The translations under genes and the position numbers were made by a program. 64,000 nt of DNA from Methanohalophilus levihalophilus. Its GTDB lineage: Archaea > Halobacteriota > Methanosarcinia > Methanosarcinales > Methanosarcinaceae. The notes under the pieces are model-generated. The model was given only the letters and a program-made list of their open reading frames with translations. It had not been told where the DNA came from and ran no database searches. The DNA lies in NCBI RefSeq assembly GCF_017874375.1, contig NZ_JAGGLK010000003.1, forward strand, positions 372,001 through 436,000, in the 5' to 3' direction. Of the stretch, positions 50,909 to 61,907 are shown piece by piece; position 1 is the first letter of the stretch, and every line of letters starts with the position of its first letter.

Positions 50909-51889
50909 CTGGAAATTCTCTGGCTAAATCAGGATGATGTGAAGGCGGCTCTTGACATGCCTTCTGCGATGGCTGCAGTGGAAAATGCATTTTTTGCACA
51001 TGGAAAAAAGAAAGTCCAGATGCCTCCAAAACCCTATCTTTATTTCCCCAAACATAATGGTGATTTGCGCACAATGCCCGCGTTTCTGGAAGAAGACGAC
51101 ATTGCAGGGGTTAAAATTGTAAATGTGCACCCTGAAAACCGGGAAAAAGGTTTGCCAACTGTAATGGCTGTATTTGTTCTTAATTCAACAGAAACTGGTG
51201 CACCGCTTGCAATCATGGATGCCACTCATCTTACTGATATGCGTACAGGTGCGGCAGGTGGAGTTGCTGCAAAATACCTTGCACGAAAGGATTCAAAAAT
51301 TGCCGGTTTTGTCGGGGGTGGTAATCAGGCAAAAGCCCAGTTGCTGGCCTTGTCCGAAAACTTTGATCTTGAGTGCGTGAAAGTTTATACTAGAAGCATT
51401 GCTTCAGCAAGTGCTTTTGCTTCTTTTGCGGGAGAACTTTTGTCATGCGACGTTATTATTTCAGCAACAATTCAGGATGCGTGTAATGCCGATATAGTGG
51501 TGACAACAACTCCTTCGAGGGAACCGATTGTCAAAGAAGAATGGATTTCTGAAGGTACACACATTAATGCCATCGGGGCGGATGCACAGGGAAAAGAGGA
51601 ACTTGATCCGATGATTTTGAAAAATGGCAGGGTTATAGTTGATGATAAGACACAGGCGTTCCATTCCGGTGAAGTAAACGTTCCTCTTAGTTCAGGAATA
51701 ATTTCCGAAAAGATGATTTGTTGTGAGATCGGTGAAGTTGTTGTTGGTTTGAAGGAGGGAAGAATTTCGGATAGTGGCATCACTATTTTTGATTCCACAG
51801 GACTTGCCATACAGGATGTTGCAGCAGGCAATCTGGTATATAAGGAAGCCTTAAAAAGAGGATTTGGTCAATCTCTCAGAATGTTTTAA
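50909..51889 (+). CDS. Ornithine cyclodeaminase/alanine dehydrogenase family (archaeal Ala), apparent CTG start
   Basis: NAD(P)-dependent amino acid oxidoreductase of the mu-crystallin family; the closest well-studied archaeal member is an alanine dehydrogenase. PPKPYLYFPKHNGDLRTMPA is near residues 37-56. The catalytic-site region MDATHLTDMRTGAAGGVAAKYL is near 101-122, followed by the NAD motif AGFVGGGNQAKAQL near 132-145. TTTPSREPIVKEEWISEG is near 202-219. The GTG at 50939 would cut the conserved N-terminus (EILWLNQDDVKAALDM). The frame remains open only to a TGA at 50897-50899, and the sole start-like codon is CTG at 50909-50911. GAGGTG sits five bases upstream of it. I annotate that CTG, giving 326 residues. 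Confidence 0.88.
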   Translation: MEILWLNQDDVKAALDMPSAMAAVENAFFAHGKKKVQMPPKPYLYFPKHNGDLRTMPAFLEEDDIAGVKIVNVHPENREKGLPTVMAVFVLNSTETGAPLAIMDATHLTDMRTGAAGGVAAKYLARKDSKIAGFVGGGNQAKAQLLALSENFDLECVKVYTRSIASASAFASFAGELLSCDVIISATIQDACNADIVVTTTPSREPIVKEEWISEGTHINAIGADAQGKEELDPMILKNGRVIVDDKTQAFHSGEVNVPLSSGIISEKMICCEIGEVVVGLKEGRISDSGITIFDSTGLAIQDVAAGNLVYKEALKRGFGQSLRMF

Positions 51890-51957: not shown

Positions 51958-52004
51958 CTTTACAATCTATATATTGATTGATATAAATCATCCGGTGGTA
52001 CGGT

Positions 52005-55000
52005 ATGAGAACTGTTGTTATTTATATAGGCATATTAGCTTTAATTGCCCTTCTATTTGCGGGGCTTGTTTCGGTGAGTGACGACCCTGCAGACATTGGT
52101 ACAATTTCAGGAAACGATTCCTTTGATCCGGGTCAGATATTCGGGCCTCAGGAATGGAACACTTCTACGAATGACAGGTTTACAATTCGCGTGAGCGAAG
52201 GCGACAAAAAGAAAACTGTAGAAGTTGCTTCAATAGATATCGAAAAACACACAAACTCTCATGACGCAGATGTTGCTCCTGGTCCCTATATTTTTGTTGA
52301 ACCCGAAGTCACAATTATTAATTGGACATACTACGTGACCAATACCGGTGATTTCGACCTGACCAACATTTCAGTAACTGATAACCGTACTACTATTAAT
52401 CCCGGACCTATAAGCGGCGACGACAATGATGGTATTCTGGAACCCGGGGAAACATGGGTTTACAATGCTACAGACTATGCCATGTATGGCCAGTATGCAA
52501 ATCTTGCCACCGTTACTGCTACCTATAAAGATGATATTGTAAGTGACGAGGATCCAAGTCACTACTATGGTGGCTATGAGCCCGAAACCTATCCTTCAAT
52601 TGAAATTGAAAAGTTAACAATCGGACAGGATGCAGATAATGCTCCCGGCCCGATAATCCCTGTTGGCTCTCCTGTTGTTTGGGAATACGTTGTAACCAAC
52701 ACTGGCAACGTTCCTCTCGCAGACATAAATGTGGTTGACGATCTTGAGGGTACTATTGGTACAATTTCATATCTGAGTCCCGGTTCATCCCACACATTAA
52801 ATGCATCCGGGATTGCAGTTGAAGGCCAGTATTCAAACCTGGCTACTGCAAATACAACCTACGATGAAGTGCTTGTAAGCGATAGCGATCCTAGCAACTA
52901 CTTCGGAGATGTGGAGGATGAGGCCGAGCCGGCAATTGACATTGAGAAAACAACAGTTGGTCAGGATGCAGATGTGGTTCCCGGTCCAGCTATTCCTGTT
53001 GGCTCGCCGTTTATCTGGGAATATACCGTGACAAACATCGGTAATGTTCCGCTGTTCAATGTAAATGTAACTGATGACAAAGAGGGTTTCATCGGTACTA
53101 TTTCCTATCTTTCCGTGGGTGAATCCCATACATTTAATGCATCAGGAAATGCAATTGAAGGGCAGTATTCAAATCTTGGGAATGTTACGGCCCGCTATGC
53201 TGATGAAACAGTGTCTGATGAAGATCCAAGTAATTATTATGGTGAAACAGATCCGGATGCCGATCCTTCCGTTAATATTACAAAACTGACTGTTGGAATA
53301 GATGCAGACAATGCACCAGGGCCCAGTATCCCGGTAGGTACAACCGTTACCTGGGAATACAATGTTACAAACACCGGTAATGTTCCCCTGTTCAACGTCA
53401 ATGTAACCGATGACAAAGAAGGTTTTATCGGGGTTATTCCATATCTTGGGGTTGATGATTTTGTTACCCTGAATACCACTGGCGTATCAGAGGCCGGCCA
53501 GTATTCGAATATTGGTAATGTCACTGCGGAGTATGGCAATACAATCGTAAGTGATGAAGATCCCGGACATTATCTTGGTGAAACAGATCCGGATGCCGAT
53601 CCTTCCGTTAATATTGAAAAACACACCAATGGCTATGATGCTGATGCAGGCAGTGGCCCCACTATTCCTGTTGGCAGTTGGGTTGTCTGGGAGTATACAA
53701 TCACAAACACCGGTAATGTAGTTCTCTTTGATGTACAGGTAAATGATGACAAGGAAGGTTTTGTCGGCAATCTTCCATTCCTTGCTCCGGGCCAGTCAAA
53801 GACCCTTTATGAATACGATATTGTTTCCAAAGAAGGACAGTACTCTAATCTTGGTAATGTAAGTGCAAGGTATGGGTCTGCAATTGTTAATGACAGTGAT
53901 CCAAGCCATTATCTTGGAGGGCCCAGGCCGGATGTAGATCCTTCTGTCAGTATTGAAAAAACTACCAATGGCTATGATGCTGACAGGGGCACAGGTCCGA
54001 GAATCCAGATTGGCAGTGACGTTGTCTGGGAATACACAGTCACCAATACCGGTGATGTGACTTTGTTTAACATCCGGGTATCTGACGACGAGGAGGGCTA
54101 TATAGGCACTATAAGGCACCTTTATCCTGGTCAGTCCCGAACTCTTGATAAGATTGGTGAGGCTGAAGAAGGTCGGTACTCCAATGAAGGAACTGCCTAC
54201 ACATATTATCGTGGCAGTCGTGTAAGTGACAGTGATCAGAGTCACTACATTGGTGTTGATCTTGATGCTGATCCTGCGCTTCATATTGAGAAGACTACCA
54301 ACGGTTATGATGCCGACAGGGGCACAGGTCCGAAAATTCAGGTTGGTAGTGATGTTGTCTGGGAATACACAGTCACCAATACCGGTGATGTAACTCTTCG
54401 CGGAATCAGAGTTCGTGATAGTGACGAAGGCTATATTGGCTATATCAGCTACTTGCATCCGGGGCAATCCCGTACACTGGATAAGATTGGTGAGGCCGAA
54501 GAAGGTCAGTATTCCAATGTTGGTCGAGCGTATGCCCGTTACTATCGTGGATACGTGGGTGATACAGACCCAAGTCACTATTACGGTACAGAAGTCGACT
54601 CCAACCCATCTCTCCATCTTGAGAAGACCACTAATGGTTATGATGCCGACAGGGGCACAGGTCCGAAAATCCAGGTTGGGAGCGATGTTGTCTGGGAATA
54701 CACAGTCACCAATACCGGTGACGTAACCCTTCGCGGAATCAGAGTTCGTGATAGTGACGAAGGCTATATTGGCTATATCAGCTACTTGCATCCGGGGCAA
54801 TCCCGTACACTGGATAAGATTGGTGAGGCCGAAGAAGGTCAGTATTCCAACGTTGGTCGAGCGTATGCCCGTTACTATCGTGGATACGTAGGTGATACAG
54901 ACCCAAGCCACTATCTCGGCGTTGAAAGGGATGCCAATCCGTCTATCCATATTGAGAAGACCACTAATGGTTATGATGCTGATACAGGTACAGGTCCGAA

Positions 55001-58000
55001 AATCCAGGTTGGTAGTGATGTTGTCTGGGAATACAAAGTCACCAATACCGGTGATGTGATGCTTCGCTATATCAGGGTTTATGACAGCAGGGAGAGATAT
55101 ATCGGAACCATTCGGTATCTGTATCCAGGTCAATCCCGTACACTGGATAAGATTGGTGAAGCTGAAGAAGGCCAGTATTCCAATGTTGGTCGCGCTTATG
55201 CCCGTTACTATCGTGGATACGTAGGTGATACAGACCCAAGCCACTATCTCGGCGTTGAAAGGGATGCCAACCCATCTATCCATATTGAGAAGACCACTAA
55301 TGGTTATGATGCTGATACAGGTACAGGTCCGAAAATCCAGGTTGGCAGTGATGTTGTCTGGGAATACAAAGTCACCAATACCGGTGATGTGATGCTTCGT
55401 TACATCAGGGTTTATGACAGCAGGGAGAGGTATATCGGAACCATTCGGTATTTGTATCCAGGTCAATCCCGTACACTGGATAAGATTGGTGAAGCCGAAG
55501 AAGGCCAGTATTCCAATGTTGGTCGTGCTTATGCCCGTTACTATCGTGGATATGTAGGTGATACAGACCCAAGCCACTACTACGGTACTGAGGAACCAAA
55601 TGCTGATCCTTCCATAGTGATTGAGAAATATACCAATGGCCAGGATGCAGATGTGGCTCCTGGACCAACAATCTCCGTGGGTTCAAATGTTGTTTGGGAA
55701 TATAAGGTCAAGAATACAGGAAACGTAACACTCTTTGCTGTAGAAGTTGGAGATAATGAAGAAGGATATATCGGAACCATTCGGTATCTTCATCCGGGAC
55801 AATCAAAAACACTCCAGAAAAGGAGTGTTTCAGAAGCAGGTCAATATTCCAATACGGGTTATGTCAGTGGAATTTATGATTCCAGTCCAATTCTTGGGCC
55901 TCTGAGGGTACTTGATAATGATCCAAGTCACTACTTCGGCGGTCCGAATCCCGACATGGATCCATCGATTAGAATTGAAAAGACTACCAATGGATTTGAT
56001 GCAGATACAGGAGCCGGTCCGGTAGTTCCAGTGGGCTCTCTGGTTGTCTGGGAGTACAATGTCACGAACACAGGTAATGTGACATTGTTTGCCGTGGAAG
56101 TTGGCGACGATCAAGAAGGTTATGTTGATACTATTCCTTTCCTTCACCCGGGTCAGTCACAAACAGTGGATAAATCAGGTACTTCGGAAGAAGGTCAGTA
56201 TTCAAATACGGGCTATGTCAGTGGAATTTATGATTCCAGTTCAATTCTTGGGCCATTGAGGGTGCTTGATAACGATCCAAGTCACTACCTGGGCAGCACC
56301 AATCCTGTTCCAAATCCGGCTATCAAGATTGAGAAAACAACTAACGATATTGATGCGGATACAGGTACAGGTCCAAGTATTCCTGTAGGTTTCCCGGTTG
56401 TCTGGAAATACAATGTAACAAATACGGGAAACGTGGCTTTAATTAATATTCAGGTAACCGATGACAAGGAAGGCTATATAGGGTCTATTCCATTCCTGCA
56501 TGCCGGACAGTCTTACATCTTTAATGAAACCAATGTTTCAGTGGAAGGCCAGTATTCAAACCTTGGAAATGTAAGTGCCATGTACGGATCTGCTACTCTG
56601 AAAGATAGCGATTCAAGCCACTATTTGGGTGTTGCTGAATACGCCTCATTGCGTTTGGAGAAATATACCAATGGTTATGATGCTGATCTGGACGACATCA
56701 CGTTTGCTCCCAGCATACCGGTAGGCAATGCGGTCACGTGGAATTATACTGTTTATAACGAGGGTAATATCCCATTGACTGACATTATTGTAACTGATGA
56801 CAAGGAAGGTTACATCGGTACCATTGCTGAACTTGGTGTTGGTGAATCCAATAACAGTCTCTCCGCTCAGAATGTTTCAGTAAAGGGTTGGTATTCCAAC
56901 CTTGCTACAGCCAATACTACTTATGACGGTCAACCTGTGAATGATACCGATCCAAGTCACTATTTCGGTTACTATGAACGTGCTTCAGTTGACATTGAGA
57001 AATACACCAATGGCTATGACGCAGACTATAGTGGTGATCCAACCATGGTTCCATTCATACCGGTTGGTGACGATGTTTACTGGAATTATACCGTTCGTAA
57101 CACTGGTAATACCGTCCTTTACAACATTGAGGTTGTAGATGACAAGGAAGGTTACATCGGTACCATTGCTGAACTTGGTCTCGGAGAATCCAACACCAGT
57201 CTCTTTGCCCGTAACGTTTCTGTTCTTGGTGAATATGAGAACAATGCAACTGTCACTGCCGAACCTGAATTCGGTCCAAATGTCACCGATTACGATCTGA
57301 GTCATTACTTTGGCTATTATGAACGTGCTTCAGTTGACATTGAGAAATACACCAATGGCTATGATGCAGACTATAGTGGTGATCCAACTATGGTTCCATT
57401 CATACCGGTTGGTGACGATGTTTACTGGAATTATACCGTTCGTAACACCGGTAATACCGTCCTTTACAACATTGAGGTTGTAGATGACAAGGAAGGTTAC
57501 ATCGGTACCATTGCTGAACTTGGTCTCGGAGAATCCAACACCAGTCTCTTTGCCCGTAACGTTTCTGTTCTTGGTGAGTATGAGAACAACGCAACTGTAA
57601 CTGCCGAACCTGAATTCGGTCCAAATGTTACTGATTATGATCTGAGTCACTATTTCGGTTACTATGAACGTGCTTCAGTTGACATTGAGAAATACACCAA
57701 TGGCTATGATGCAGACTATAGTGGTGATCCAACTATGGTTCCATTCATACCGGTTGGTGACGATGTTTACTGGAATTATACTGTTCGTAACACCGGTAAT
57801 ACCGTCCTTTACAACATTGAGGTTGTTGATGACAAGGAAGGTTACATCGGTACCATTGCTGAACTTGGTCTCGGGGAATCCAACACCAGTCTCTTTGCCC
57901 GTAACGTTTCTGTTCTTGGTGAGTATGAGAACAACGCAACTGTAACTGCAGAACCTGAATTCGGTCCAAATGTTACTGATTATGATCTGAGTCACTACCT

Positions 58001-59120
58001 CGGTTACGCTGCAAGTGCATCAATTGATCTCGAAGTACTTACTAACGGGCAGGATGTCAATGATCCTGCTTTTGCTCCACTGGTTCCGGTGGGCAATAAT
58101 GTGACCTGGAATTATACAGTTACCAACACGGGTAATGCTGTCCTTTACAACATCGTAGTAAATGACAGCCAAGAAGGCTATATTGGTACGATTGCTGAAC
58201 TTGGCATAGGTGAAACCAACAGCAGTCTCTTTGCCCGTAACGTTTCCGTTCTAGGTCTGTATTCAAATGTTGCAACTGCCAGGACTACACATAACAGCCA
58301 ACCGGTTGTTGATACCGATTCAAGTTACTACTTCGGCCACACTAAGGATGCTTCACTTGATATTGAGAAGCGCACAAATGGCCTGAAAGTTGTCAATCCT
58401 GCATTTGCGCCTGATATTCTGGTAGGTTCTACTGTTATCTGGAACTATACCGTCACTAACACTGGAGGTGCTGTCCTCTATGATGTCATTGTAACAGATG
58501 ATAAAGAGGGATACATTGGCACGATTGAAGAACTTGGTATCGGCAAATCCAACAGCAGCCTTTCAGCCCAGAATATTTCTGTAAAAGGCCTGTATTCTAA
58601 CACTGTCACTGCTGAGACTTCTCACGATAGTCAACCGATTTCCGATAGTGACTCCAGCTATTATTACGGTATTGACGGCAACGATCCAAGACCATTGGTA
58701 GATCTGGAAAAATTCACTAACAACAATGATGCAGATGCGGCTCCCGGGCCCAGTATCATGATTGGAACACAGGTCACATGGAAGTATGTTGTAACAAATG
58801 CCGGCAATGTGAATCTCACAAATGTTGTTGTGACTGATAACAAGGTGTCTGTTAACAGTAATCCAGTTGCCGGAGATGATGGTGACAATGTTCTTGAACC
58901 CGGAGAATCCTGGGTTTATGAAGCATCTGGACTTGCGATTGCAGGCCCCTATGAGAATCTTGGAAATGTGACGGCCAGCTATGAGGATACTGTTGTTTCA
59001 GATGAAGATCTAAGCCATTATACGGGAGTAAATGAAGAGATTCCCGAATTCCCGACCGTTGCAATCCCAATGCTGGTAGTAATTTCGCTTCTCTTTGTTT
59101 TCAGGAGAAGGCAAGACTGA
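52005..59120 (+). CDS. Giant surface protein with 20 DUF11-type repeats and PEF-CTERM
   Basis: A 2371-residue secreted protein. A signal peptide (residues 1-24, ending FAGLVSV) is followed by a conserved linker with GPQEWNTST. From residue 76 to 2345 there are 20 repeats of 111-118 residues. Most contain IEKxTNGxDAD, a VWEYxVTNTGN segment and a DDKEGYIGTI strand, the pattern of DUF11-type beta-sandwich domains of surface proteins. Repeats 1 and 20 differ, having SGDDNDGILEPGETWVY-like sequence instead of the EGxIG strand. The C-terminus is PEFPTVAIP plus a hydrophobic helix and RRRQD, an archaeal PEF-CTERM signal processed by archaeosortase. Many N-x-S/T sites suggest glycosylation. GGTGG lies before the ATG. 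It is probably an adhesin or S-layer-associated protein. Confidence 0.93.
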   Translation: MRTVVIYIGILALIALLFAGLVSVSDDPADIGTISGNDSFDPGQIFGPQEWNTSTNDRFTIRVSEGDKKKTVEVASIDIEKHTNSHDADVAPGPYIFVEPEVTIINWTYYVTNTGDFDLTNISVTDNRTTINPGPISGDDNDGILEPGETWVYNATDYAMYGQYANLATVTATYKDDIVSDEDPSHYYGGYEPETYPSIEIEKLTIGQDADNAPGPIIPVGSPVVWEYVVTNTGNVPLADINVVDDLEGTIGTISYLSPGSSHTLNASGIAVEGQYSNLATANTTYDEVLVSDSDPSNYFGDVEDEAEPAIDIEKTTVGQDADVVPGPAIPVGSPFIWEYTVTNIGNVPLFNVNVTDDKEGFIGTISYLSVGESHTFNASGNAIEGQYSNLGNVTARYADETVSDEDPSNYYGETDPDADPSVNITKLTVGIDADNAPGPSIPVGTTVTWEYNVTNTGNVPLFNVNVTDDKEGFIGVIPYLGVDDFVTLNTTGVSEAGQYSNIGNVTAEYGNTIVSDEDPGHYLGETDPDADPSVNIEKHTNGYDADAGSGPTIPVGSWVVWEYTITNTGNVVLFDVQVNDDKEGFVGNLPFLAPGQSKTLYEYDIVSKEGQYSNLGNVSARYGSAIVNDSDPSHYLGGPRPDVDPSVSIEKTTNGYDADRGTGPRIQIGSDVVWEYTVTNTGDVTLFNIRVSDDEEGYIGTIRHLYPGQSRTLDKIGEAEEGRYSNEGTAYTYYRGSRVSDSDQSHYIGVDLDADPALHIEKTTNGYDADRGTGPKIQVGSDVVWEYTVTNTGDVTLRGIRVRDSDEGYIGYISYLHPGQSRTLDKIGEAEEGQYSNVGRAYARYYRGYVGDTDPSHYYGTEVDSNPSLHLEKTTNGYDADRGTGPKIQVGSDVVWEYTVTNTGDVTLRGIRVRDSDEGYIGYISYLHPGQSRTLDKIGEAEEGQYSNVGRAYARYYRGYVGDTDPSHYLGVERDANPSIHIEKTTNGYDADTGTGPKIQVGSDVVWEYKVTNTGDVMLRYIRVYDSRERYIGTIRYLYPGQSRTLDKIGEAEEGQYSNVGRAYARYYRGYVGDTDPSHYLGVERDANPSIHIEKTTNGYDADTGTGPKIQVGSDVVWEYKVTNTGDVMLRYIRVYDSRERYIGTIRYLYPGQSRTLDKIGEAEEGQYSNVGRAYARYYRGYVGDTDPSHYYGTEEPNADPSIVIEKYTNGQDADVAPGPTISVGSNVVWEYKVKNTGNVTLFAVEVGDNEEGYIGTIRYLHPGQSKTLQKRSVSEAGQYSNTGYVSGIYDSSPILGPLRVLDNDPSHYFGGPNPDMDPSIRIEKTTNGFDADTGAGPVVPVGSLVVWEYNVTNTGNVTLFAVEVGDDQEGYVDTIPFLHPGQSQTVDKSGTSEEGQYSNTGYVSGIYDSSSILGPLRVLDNDPSHYLGSTNPVPNPAIKIEKTTNDIDADTGTGPSIPVGFPVVWKYNVTNTGNVALINIQVTDDKEGYIGSIPFLHAGQSYIFNETNVSVEGQYSNLGNVSAMYGSATLKDSDSSHYLGVAEYASLRLEKYTNGYDADLDDITFAPSIPVGNAVTWNYTVYNEGNIPLTDIIVTDDKEGYIGTIAELGVGESNNSLSAQNVSVKGWYSNLATANTTYDGQPVNDTDPSHYFGYYERASVDIEKYTNGYDADYSGDPTMVPFIPVGDDVYWNYTVRNTGNTVLYNIEVVDDKEGYIGTIAELGLGESNTSLFARNVSVLGEYENNATVTAEPEFGPNVTDYDLSHYFGYYERASVDIEKYTNGYDADYSGDPTMVPFIPVGDDVYWNYTVRNTGNTVLYNIEVVDDKEGYIGTIAELGLGESNTSLFARNVSVLGEYENNATVTAEPEFGPNVTDYDLSHYFGYYERASVDIEKYTNGYDADYSGDPTMVPFIPVGDDVYWNYTVRNTGNTVLYNIEVVDDKEGYIGTIAELGLGESNTSLFARNVSVLGEYENNATVTAEPEFGPNVTDYDLSHYLGYAASASIDLEVLTNGQDVNDPAFAPLVPVGNNVTWNYTVTNTGNAVLYNIVVNDSQEGYIGTIAELGIGETNSSLFARNVSVLGLYSNVATARTTHNSQPVVDTDSSYYFGHTKDASLDIEKRTNGLKVVNPAFAPDILVGSTVIWNYTVTNTGGAVLYDVIVTDDKEGYIGTIEELGIGKSNSSLSAQNISVKGLYSNTVTAETSHDSQPISDSDSSYYYGIDGNDPRPLVDLEKFTNNNDADAAPGPSIMIGTQVTWKYVVTNAGNVNLTNVVVTDNKVSVNSNPVAGDDGDNVLEPGESWVYEASGLAIAGPYENLGNVTASYEDTVVSDEDLSHYTGVNEEIPEFPTVAIPMLVVISLLFVFRRRQD
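54936..55604 (+). repeat. Near-identical DUF11 repeats 9-10
   Basis: Two adjacent copies of a 333-bp unit (from about 54936 and 55269) encode almost the same 111 residues, beginning NPSIHIEKTTNGYDADTGTG. Repeats 7 and 8 just upstream (about 54270-54935) form a second near-identical pair with the same 333-bp period. Confidence 0.85.
56985..58019 (+). repeat. Three near-identical DUF11 repeats, 345-bp period
   Basis: Units begin at 56985, 57330 and 57675, each 345 bp, and encode the same 115-residue repeat (SVDIEKYTNGYDADYSGDPT onward). The few differences at DNA level are mostly synonymous. Confidence 0.93.
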
Positions 59121-59330: not shown

Positions 59331-59490
59331 ACGTGCTTGGTGGCACGATATGAAAGCTGCTTAAATCTAGATGTGGCGTGTGCTGTGGTGGTACGATATG
59401 AATGCTGCATAAATCTAGGTGTGGCGTACTGTGGTGGTACGGTATGAAAGCTGCTTAAATCAGATGTGACGTGCTTGGTGGTGCGATATG
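59331..59490 (+). repeat. Four tandem ribosome-binding-site/start modules upstream of the PKD protein
   Basis: The unit GTGGTACGATATGAAAGCTG (with small changes) occurs four times with ATGs at 59350, 59398, 59444 and 59488, spaced 48, 46 and 44 bp. The first three ATGs open four-codon frames (MKAA, MNAA, MKAA) ended by TAA. The fourth reads into the PKD protein, whose first codons are also MKAA. Each has a GGTGG or GGTGGC about nine bases upstream. AT-rich TATA-like sequences lie just before the array (59290-59320). Confidence 0.88.
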
Positions 59491-60606
59491 AAAGCTGCTA
59501 TATTTCTCATGCTAATGTTTATGCTGTTCGGATTTCTTTTTGCAGGATTAGTTTCATTTGGAGATGATCCTGCGCCGGTTGGCACAAGTTCCGGCAATGA
59601 TGCGTTTAAACCAGCTCAGGTGGAGGGTCCTCAGGAATGGAATACGTCTACCTTTGACGATGGTTTTAAAATTCGTGTAAGTCCGGGTGATGGTGGCGGT
59701 GGAAAGATATTGATTGTCGAAGAAGATCCGATTCTTCCGATAGCTCACTTCACTTCCAATACAACCGGCGGTCTTGCTCCCCTTTCCGTTCAGTTCTGGG
59801 ATAATTCAAGCAACACTACCGGCATTTCCTGGGATTTTGATGGTGACAACGTTGAAGATTCCAATACCTCTTCTCCGTTCTGGGTATTTGGGGTCGGCAA
59901 CCATAGTGTAAACCTCACTGCAAGCAATGGAAATGGCACTGATGTTTATGCTGCTTACATCAACGTTACAGAAGCTGAAGAACCTGAGAAGGAGAATCCA
60001 ATTCTTCCGGTAGCTTACTTCAAGTCAAATGTTAGCAGTGGATTTGCTCCTCTTGCAGTACAGTTCTGGGATAATTCCAGCAATGCTTCCAGTATTTCCT
60101 GGGATTTTGATGGTGATCACGTTGAAGATTCCAATACCTCTTCTCCGTTCTGGGTCTTTGGGGTCGGCAATCATAGTGTAAACCTCACTGCCAGCAATGG
60201 AAATGGCACCGATGTTTATGCTGCTTACATCAACGTTACTGAAGTCGAAGGGCCTGAGGAGGAAGATCCGATTCTTCCGATGGCTCACTTCACTTCCAAT
60301 GTAACCGGCGGTCTTGCTCCCCTTTCCGTTCAGTTCTGGGATAATTCCAGCAATGCTACCATCATTTCATGGGACTTTGATGGCGACAATGTTGAAGACT
60401 CTAATTCCAGTTCCCCTGTATGGACATTCAATGCGTTCGGGCCACATGAAGTAAACCTGATTGCAAGCAATGCCAATGGAAGTCACAGCTACATTGGCAC
60501 AATATATGTGACGCCGGATGAAGAAATTCCGGAATTCCCGACAATTGCCATTCCAATAATGATTGTGGGAATGTTGTTCTTCATCAGCAGAAGAAATTTA
60601 AAATGA
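59488..60606 (+). CDS. Surface protein with three PKD domains and PEF-CTERM
   Basis: A 372-residue secreted protein. The signal peptide (residues 1-23) and following linker are closely related to those of the giant gene: FAGLVS..DDPA.VGT.SGND with GPQEWNTST. Three PKD-type domains follow (about 86-165, 172-250 and 257-340), each with SVQFWDNSSN or a variant, SWDFDGDNVEDSN and HSVNLTASNGNGTDVYAAYI. The C-terminus is PEFPTIAIP plus a helix and RRNLK, a PEF-CTERM sorting signal. PKD domains mediate protein or carbohydrate contacts in S-layer and adhesion proteins. The two genes probably arose from a shared 5' module. Confidence 0.92.
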   Translation: MKAAIFLMLMFMLFGFLFAGLVSFGDDPAPVGTSSGNDAFKPAQVEGPQEWNTSTFDDGFKIRVSPGDGGGGKILIVEEDPILPIAHFTSNTTGGLAPLSVQFWDNSSNTTGISWDFDGDNVEDSNTSSPFWVFGVGNHSVNLTASNGNGTDVYAAYINVTEAEEPEKENPILPVAYFKSNVSSGFAPLAVQFWDNSSNASSISWDFDGDHVEDSNTSSPFWVFGVGNHSVNLTASNGNGTDVYAAYINVTEVEGPEEEDPILPMAHFTSNVTGGLAPLSVQFWDNSSNATIISWDFDGDNVEDSNSSSPVWTFNAFGPHEVNLIASNANGSHSYIGTIYVTPDEEIPEFPTIAIPIMIVGMLFFISRRNLK

Positions 60607-60610
60607 TGAC

Positions 60611-60647
60611 AAAATAACGGGAATCAAAGGCTCCTTCCCGTTATTTT
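60611..60647. terminator. Bidirectional terminator, PKD gene / ferritin-like gene
   Basis: AAAATAACGGGAA and TTCCCGTTATTTT form a perfect 13-base stem with an 11-base loop between two convergent genes. The right arm encodes the C-terminus of the minus-strand gene. Confidence 0.7.
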
Positions 60648-61124
60648 CCTAAATCCGCCAATTCTTTCTTCACATATCCTGCGATGCTGCTCTTCTTCTT
60701 TAGCCAGTGTTCCCATGTCTTCAATAAATTCTGACTGAACACTCTCTTCAATAAAGAGATCTTTGATCGCTTCCCTTGATTTTCTGACTTCAATATAAGT
60801 GTCTCTTGCCAGAATTTCATATTTCATGATGTTCCGGAACATCTCAGGGCTGTCCATTCCATCAAAATCAAAATTTTTGCTTGGCAGACCTGCAGGTTTG
60901 CTTGTAGGAATTTCAATATTTGCTTTCTGAAGCCATTTTTCAAGAATCACGTGATGTCTCTCTGAATCGGCTGAAAGGAGTTCAATTGCTTCCGCATCCT
61001 CTCCCATCAACTCAATTCGTGCTTCCCATAGTCCAAGTTGCTCCATTTCCGCTTCCATCCAGTACATTTTCTGAAGTCTGAATGCGAGTGCTTCCTTATT
61101 TGAAATTTGTGCCATGTCCCTCAT
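60624..61124 (-). CDS. Ferritin-like di-iron protein
   Basis: A 166-residue, mainly helical protein. Glutamates and histidines fall in the pattern of a four-helix di-iron bundle: ALAFRLQKMYWMEAEMEQLG near 10-30, ELLSADSERHHVILEKWL near 48-65, KYEILARDTYIEV near 106-118 and AKEEEQHRRICEERIGG near 142-158. The EERIG tail is rubrerythrin/ferritin-like. Subfamily and substrate are unknown. A role in iron or oxidative-stress handling is likely but not shown. Confidence 0.78.
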   Translation of the reverse strand: MRDMAQISNKEALAFRLQKMYWMEAEMEQLGLWEARIELMGEDAEAIELLSADSERHHVILEKWLQKANIEIPTSKPAGLPSKNFDFDGMDSPEMFRNIMKYEILARDTYIEVRKSREAIKDLFIEESVQSEFIEDMGTLAKEEEQHRRICEERIGGFRKITGRSL

Positions 61125-61217: not shown

Positions 61218-61907
61218 TTGTCAGGGATATGTCTTTTGAGCAGTGGTCTGGATTCAGTCGCCGCTCTTGTATTGTCAAAGAAAAAAATGGATATTGATAT
61301 TGCACTTACCTTTGACTACGGCCAGCGGTCTGCTGTGATTGAAACTTCTTTTTCCAAAAAAATATGTGATTATTACGGTATCCCTCATAAAATCATTAAA
61401 CTTGATTGGCTGGCAGATATAACTAATACGTCTCTTGTGAACATGGATGAATCATTACCAAAACCCAGTGATGAGGATCTTTTCTCTGAGGTTGCGACAA
61501 ATACTGCGTCAGCAGTATGGGTTCCGAATCGCAATGGTTTGGTGCTCAATATCGCTGCGTGCTTTGCGGAAAGCATGGATTGTGAATTTATAATCACAGG
61601 TTTTAACGGCGAGGAGGCAGCAACTTTCCCGGATAACTCGCCGGAATTTGTGGATGCTGCCAACACTTTTTTCACTTACTCAACTCTTAAGGATGTGAAT
61701 GTTTATGCTCCTTTGTTGGGGCTGGACAAAGAATCTATCGTGAAATTATCTATTGAAAACGATACTCCTCTCAGGTGGAGCTGGAGTTGCTACGATTCGG
61801 GTCCTGTTCCCTGCGGAGTTTGTGAAAGCTGTAAAAGACGTTCTCTTGCTTTTGAAAAAATCGGTGTAACCGATCCATTATTTGTTGAAACGGAGGGTAC
61901 AAAATGA
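61218..61907 (+). CDS. queC: QueC: 7-cyano-7-deazaguanine (preQ0) synthase
   Basis: Converts 7-carboxy-7-deazaguanine to preQ0, the precursor of archaeosine in tRNA. The 229-residue protein has the PP-loop motif LLSSGLDSVAALVLS (residues 5-19), FDYGQRSAVIE near 34-44 and a C-terminal zinc site CYDSGPVPCGVCESCKRR near 199-216. The start is TTG after GGAGG. It overlaps the DUF366 gene by four bases. Confidence 0.95.
   Translation: MSGICLLSSGLDSVAALVLSKKKMDIDIALTFDYGQRSAVIETSFSKKICDYYGIPHKIIKLDWLADITNTSLVNMDESLPKPSDEDLFSEVATNTASAVWVPNRNGLVLNIAACFAESMDCEFIITGFNGEEAATFPDNSPEFVDAANTFFTYSTLKDVNVYAPLLGLDKESIVKLSIENDTPLRWSWSCYDSGPVPCGVCESCKRRSLAFEKIGVTDPLFVETEGTK

Follow-up and report, generated by a model that had tools for sequence, protein, structure and literature searches.

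Long surface proteins made of tandem Ig-like beta-sandwich repeats occur in both bacteria and archaea, and their repeats include the CLIPPER (DUF11; PF01345) and CLIPPER_2 (DUF7507; PF24346) families (PMC12617251). The survey that renamed DUF7507 as CLIPPER_2 predicted a Lys-Asp-Asn isopeptide triad for the family, and the published example includes the pair Asp112-Asn152 (PMC12617251). In methanogens, MTCT_1020 of Methanothermobacter sp. CaT2 combines a signal with 11 DUF11 repeats and a membrane segment at the C terminus, and a nonsense mutant in this protein lost aggregation (PMC6759345). MTCT_1020 also has further domain types, RI and RII, and its authors favor RI/RII as the aggregating part (PMC6759345). 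A literature search on Methanohalophilus repeat proteins found none about a protein of this kind by title or abstract.

Here, we analyzed a 64,000-nucleotide stretch of the Methanohalophilus levihalophilus genome ("the window"), in which an array gene sits between an alanine dehydrogenase gene (alaDH) and queC (Table 1). Pfam recognized 20 stretches of DUF7507 (E = 1.3e-151; 494.9 bits against a curated cutoff of 27), bearing out the 20 repeats within one open reading frame of the original prediction. The protein as a whole also scored against DUF11 (71.4 bits, cutoff 24.6, E = 1e-19) and against the DUF11-type repeat TIGR01451 (94.2 bits, two stretches), but we label the family DUF7507 and not DUF11 because no individual stretch passed the DUF11 profile. 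Thus, the expected "DUF11 surface protein" has the surface-type architecture but belongs to a relative of DUF11. The repeats are 109 to 122 amino acids long (n = 20). Tandem-repeat scores for the array were 1956 and 1941, and repeats were less alike the farther apart they stood in the array (0 of 5,000 permutations were as strong). We conclude that the periodicity of the array is not due to chance. An antisense open reading frame of 593 codons (53796-55577, minus strand) runs across repeats 6 to 10 and is probably a by-product of periodic codons. An Rfam search of the array locus gave nothing credible.

Table 1. Features of the array locus in window coordinates
Feature	Coordinates	Strand	Basis or remark
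Archaeal alanine dehydrogenase (alaDH), left border	50939..51889	+	TIGR02371
Start region GGTGGTACGGTATG, SD-like GGTGG	51990..52010	+	Sister MAG G002 shares region plus ~8 codons
Array gene, 2371-aa predicted surface protein, 20 DUF7507 (CLIPPER_2) repeats	52005..59120	+	ORF + Pfam
N-terminal module (residues 1-78): hydrophobic signal/anchor segment, then linker	52005..52238	+	
Repeat array, R1-R20	52239..59039	+	Starts: 52239, 52605, 52941, 53277, 53613, 53952, 54285, 54618, 54951, 55284, 55620, 55974, 56328, 56655, 56994, 57339, 57684, 58029, 58362, 58704
Repeat 1, loop form	52239..52604	+	
Loop SGDDNDGILEPGETWVY in repeat 1	52413..52463	+	
Repeats 2-5, short form, N-half class	52605..53951	+	
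Repeats 6-10; pairs 7-8 and 9-10 with 92% DNA identity, period 333 bp	53952..55619	+	
Repeats 11-13; extra ILGPLR segment common to 11 and 12	55620..56654	+	
Repeats 14-19, C-half class; 15-17 with 93-96% DNA identity, period 345 bp	56655..58703	+	
Isopeptide Lys position of repeat 18, Val; sole repeat without Lys	58035..58037	+	
Repeat 20, loop form; best DUF7507 model match	58704..59039	+	
Loop AGDDGDNVLEPGESWVY in repeat 20	58869..58919	+	
PEF-CTERM-like tail IPEFPTVAIPMLVVISLLFVFRRR, predicted archaeosortase C signal	59040..59111	+	TIGR03024 + sequence
Neighbor paralogue sharing the N-terminal module and PEF-CTERM of the array gene, with PKD domains between	59488..60606	+	
Ferritin-like small protein gene (putative)	60624..61124	-	Name read from sequence
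queC-like gene, right border	61218..61907	+	Synteny; named presumptively from established knowledge of the cluster

The repeats carry the residues for an intramolecular Lys-Asn isopeptide bond, the bond itself being predicted from sequence. In repeat 20, the triad was assigned by position and spacing relative to the published example as K3, D45, and N85, and the 40 residues from Asp to Asn equal the spacing of Asp112-Asn152. Across the window array, the predicted Lys is found in 19 of 20 repeats (R18 has Val), and the Asp and Asn are found in all 20. The triad is also nearly invariant in the repeats of relatives (Asp in 118/118 and Asn in 116/118). Set against the described CLIPPER_2 and CLIPPER proteins, the window array is missing a 7-residue loop in 18 of its 20 repeats and the Lys in one, and the bond is here a prediction. 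Moreover, AF2 models gave tandem all-beta domains (pLDDT 89.5 and 85.3), and Foldseek and VIA-align comparison to the PDB returned generic Ig-like folds only, at low TM (integrin, transglutaminase, and adhesins). A functional reading of these fold matches was dropped, as they are too generic. The solved CLIPPER entry 9IFR was absent among the fold-search matches listed, which is uninformative about a CnaA-like/E-set beta-sandwich, and a search of solved structures by sequence gave no credible match. Pfam found no recognizable adhesive, ligand-binding, or tip domain on the array protein. Thus, of the features of a fibrillar adhesin, the stalk and the anchor are seen, and an adhesive domain is not recognized by Pfam. 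The protein resembles MTCT_1020 as a predicted methanogen surface protein with related repeats but has DUF7507 repeats only and lacks RI/RII.

How the protein is anchored may be read from its C terminus. Like members of the PEF-CTERM/archaeosortase C system (TIGR03024/TIGR03762), the window protein ends in PEF, a hydrophobic stretch, and RRR, and archaeosortase C (ArtC) is encoded in the same genome (TIGR03762; 337 bits; E = 7.9e-101). Unlike curated members, the tail falls slightly below the NCBIfam cutoff (21.4 bits against 23; E = 2.2e-4), and its processing is predicted. The PEF-CTERM of the PKD neighbor scored above the cutoff, at 24.2 bits, and the start of the same neighbor is paralogous to the N-terminal module of the array protein (58% identity; G000:C3:431500-431697). 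No ArtC match was found in the seven other genomes of the genus (1/8 with the window genome). At the syntenic locus, PEF-CTERM proteins are encoded by the window genome (G000) and by G019, G049, G050, G053, and G054, and ArtC is present in five of these six genomes. In G009, G022, G051, G052, G056, and G057, the arrays end without PEF-CTERM, and none of these six has an ArtC match. The co-occurrence is suggestive (one-sided Fisher test, P = 0.008, with no correction for kinship and with the grouping seen before testing). We note that orthologues without PEF-CTERM (L098, L104, and L108-L110) share a similar non-hydrophobic LKNVLEMYNNGTLY-like tail, which is unnamed by Pfam in L098.

Two further elements were seen in the window genome. 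Before the PKD gene (59332-59517), an SD-ATG unit (GGTGGNACGATATGAAAGCTGC) occurs four times with a period of ~46 bp. The first three read as an ATG, three codons, and a stop (MKAA*, MNAA*, and MKAA*), and the PKD gene itself begins at the fourth. The repeat is a tandem-duplicated translation start and possibly has a regulatory role. Elsewhere, two intergenic elements of ~100 nucleotides (L128 1690-1800 and 1983-2095; G000:C4) lie upstream of a glycyl-tRNA-synthetase-like gene and fold strongly (z of -5.4 and -5.3); in the closing stem, the two differ by one compensatory pair. They have GGTGGTACGATATGAATGCTG in common with the PKD leader, and an Rfam search gave no credible match to them. They are possibly an unclassified RNA or a mobile hairpin.

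The content of the locus differs greatly among relatives. In the sister Methanohalophilus sp. MAG (G002), alaDH is 83% identical, and the alaDH-queC gap is only 193 bp. A relic of the array gene is present there (L032, ~1310-1500), in which the upstream region, the start, and ~8 codons are fused to the upstream region of queC, and the rest of the G002 genome gave no further match to the array protein. The simplest reading is that a deletion of ~9.1 kb took the array, PKD, and ferritin-like genes, and an assembly error at the junction is possible because G002 is a MAG. Six other Methanohalophilus genomes lack the array gene and keep only the ferritin-like gene between alaDH and queC. The Methanococcoides-type orthologues (g3; G009, G022, G052, G056, and G057) resemble the window protein in locus, in DUF7507 repeats, in a loop-form last repeat, and in a similar N-terminal module. 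They differ from it in having 3 to 6 repeats instead of 20 (G009, 6; G022, 3; G052, 4; G056, 5; G057, 4), in the C terminus without PEF-CTERM, and in coming from genomes without an ArtC match. The alanine dehydrogenase genes of G009 (6 repeats) and G022 (3 repeats) are 93.4% identical in DNA. One repeat is found at the locus in G049 and G054, short PEF-CTERM proteins are found in G050 and G053, and nothing is found in G055. Finally, a second array gene in other Methanohalophilus genomes, followed each time by a neighbor gene of the same type (403 to 414 amino acids), has 7 repeats in G003, 6 in G006, and 14 in G007. All counts come from assemblies, in which contigs end at arrays in G051 and G001 and the array of G003 is partly masked.

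The age of the copies was read from synonymous change. The original prediction of nearly identical repeats was apt for repeats 15 to 17 (96% DNA identity for R15/16 and R16/17, 93% for R15/17, and 97.1% over 690 bp at an offset of 345) and generous for R7/8 and R9/10 (92% each). Synonymous divergence was 0.21 for R15/16, 0.10 for R16/17, 0.30 for R15/17, 0.25 for R7/8, and 0.28 for R9/10, dN among these copies was 0 to 0.04, and no two repeats of the array are identical in DNA. By comparison, flanking genes differ from the sister MAG at an NG86 dS of ~0.9 to 1.2. Thus, if the synonymous rate of the array is similar to that of the flanking genes, the exchanges postdate the divergence from the sister but are not very recent. 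Exchange between neighbors with turnover in number, as had been proposed, is supported between species, but "recent" was too strong a word. Moreover, repeats 15 and 16 encode identical proteins with 14 synonymous and 0 replacement differences, a pattern expected at P = 8e-10 if replacement changes were free. We conclude that purifying selection holds the repeat domains alike.

Repeat number turns over between species while the ends are sheltered, as indicated by the differing counts at the locus, by the identity of neighbors, and by the repeat tree. In ten family arrays of at least 5 repeats each, mean identity was ~21 points higher between interior neighbors than between end neighbors (0 of 20,000 permutations were as strong). 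The repeat tree places the last repeats of six orthologues from the locus in one clade (support 100) and the first repeats of four orthologues in another (support 99), and interior repeats mostly cluster by species. The second array genes of G003, G006, and G007 show the same pattern. The idea of a homogenized interior with different ends therefore holds between species. The window repeats split into R1+R20, R2-R13, and R14-R19, and the last group joins interior repeats of G009 and G052 (support 96, and 81 without loop columns). Without the loop columns, an AU test did not reject monophyly of the 20 window repeats (P = 0.40). R1/R20 joined the end repeats of the Methanococcoides-type orthologues only as long as the loop columns were included, and this grouping, which would make R1 and R20 possible orthologues of the end repeats of other species, was set aside.

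We consider it likely that the array protein is a membrane-anchored, cross-linked rod whose length evolves by exchange among interior repeats. Such a rod would most likely serve as a stalk or adhesin on or through the S-layer, and its surface location, its shape, and a role in attachment or aggregation are inferred. The N-terminal hydrophobic segment would direct export, and the PEF-CTERM would be processed by archaeosortase C. The rod would be made of 20 Ig-like domains, of which 19 could form the covalent Lys-Asn cross-link. Length would change as interior repeats are gained and lost by exchange among adjacent copies. The end repeats would pair poorly with the interior, exchange little, and diverge separately. 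Purifying selection preserves the core of each domain.

Why the first and last repeats differ from the interior could be explained otherwise. The end repeats had been proposed to cap the array, and the GDDxDG loop, possibly binding calcium, might close the array or touch the S-layer or membrane, with selection maintaining the difference. Indeed, the two ends do share a different sequence, as predicted: the 7 residues seen in SGDDNDGILEPGETWVY and AGDDGDNVLEPGESWVY are missing from the 18 other repeats, and R1 and R20 match each other better than either matches any other repeat (55% protein identity, against 32 to 51% for all others). They remain sisters without the loop columns (support 87), and the last repeats of the Methanococcoides-type orthologues are loop-bearing and form a single clade. 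The loop, however, is found inside many other arrays (repeats 1 to 7 of L096, and L090) and is missing from the ends of L095 and from the first repeats of L091-L093 and L098. Moreover, it is R20 that matches the ordinary DUF7507 profile best in this genome. A dedicated cap is therefore unsupported, as the loop is the ordinary family form, and we consider selection for specialized ends quite improbable.

Near identity might instead reflect strong selection on the domains, or gene conversion that leaves length unchanged, with repeat number stable within a species. The mostly synonymous differences and the dS values, which speak against very recent exchange, would fit, and differences between near-identical copies cluster near the ends of the repeats, a distribution like that left by partial conversion. 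Selection alone is insufficient, however, as dS of 0.1 to 0.3 is far below the ~1.0 to the sister and the greater values between other repeats, and orthologous loci do vary in repeat number. We find this account unlikely. Less likely still is that the count of 20 or the near identity was produced by assembly collapse or expansion. The contig ends in G051 and G001, the masked stretch in G003, and the five contigs of the window genome give some cause for the suspicion, but the repeats are never identical in DNA, the array is internal to a 597-kb contig, and relatives assembled in one contig (G006, G007, G009, and G011) have arrays of the same kind. Interior exchange in a rod with sheltered ends is the explanation that we prefer.

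A recent survey covered isopeptide-type stalk domains in archaea, and we found no account of such an array evolving at one locus. Tentatively, the interval between alaDH and queC may be a conserved Methanosarcinaceae site for a surface protein, with a cross-linked stalk of 0 to 20 beads, fixed ends, and an anchor that changes with the processing enzyme. The locus suggests that loss of archaeosortase C accompanies change or loss of its substrate. Ultimately, the locus offers a graded natural series (a remnant and 1, 3, 4, 5, 6, and 20 repeats) between conserved borders, and thus it becomes testable how stalk length relates to aggregation and habitat.
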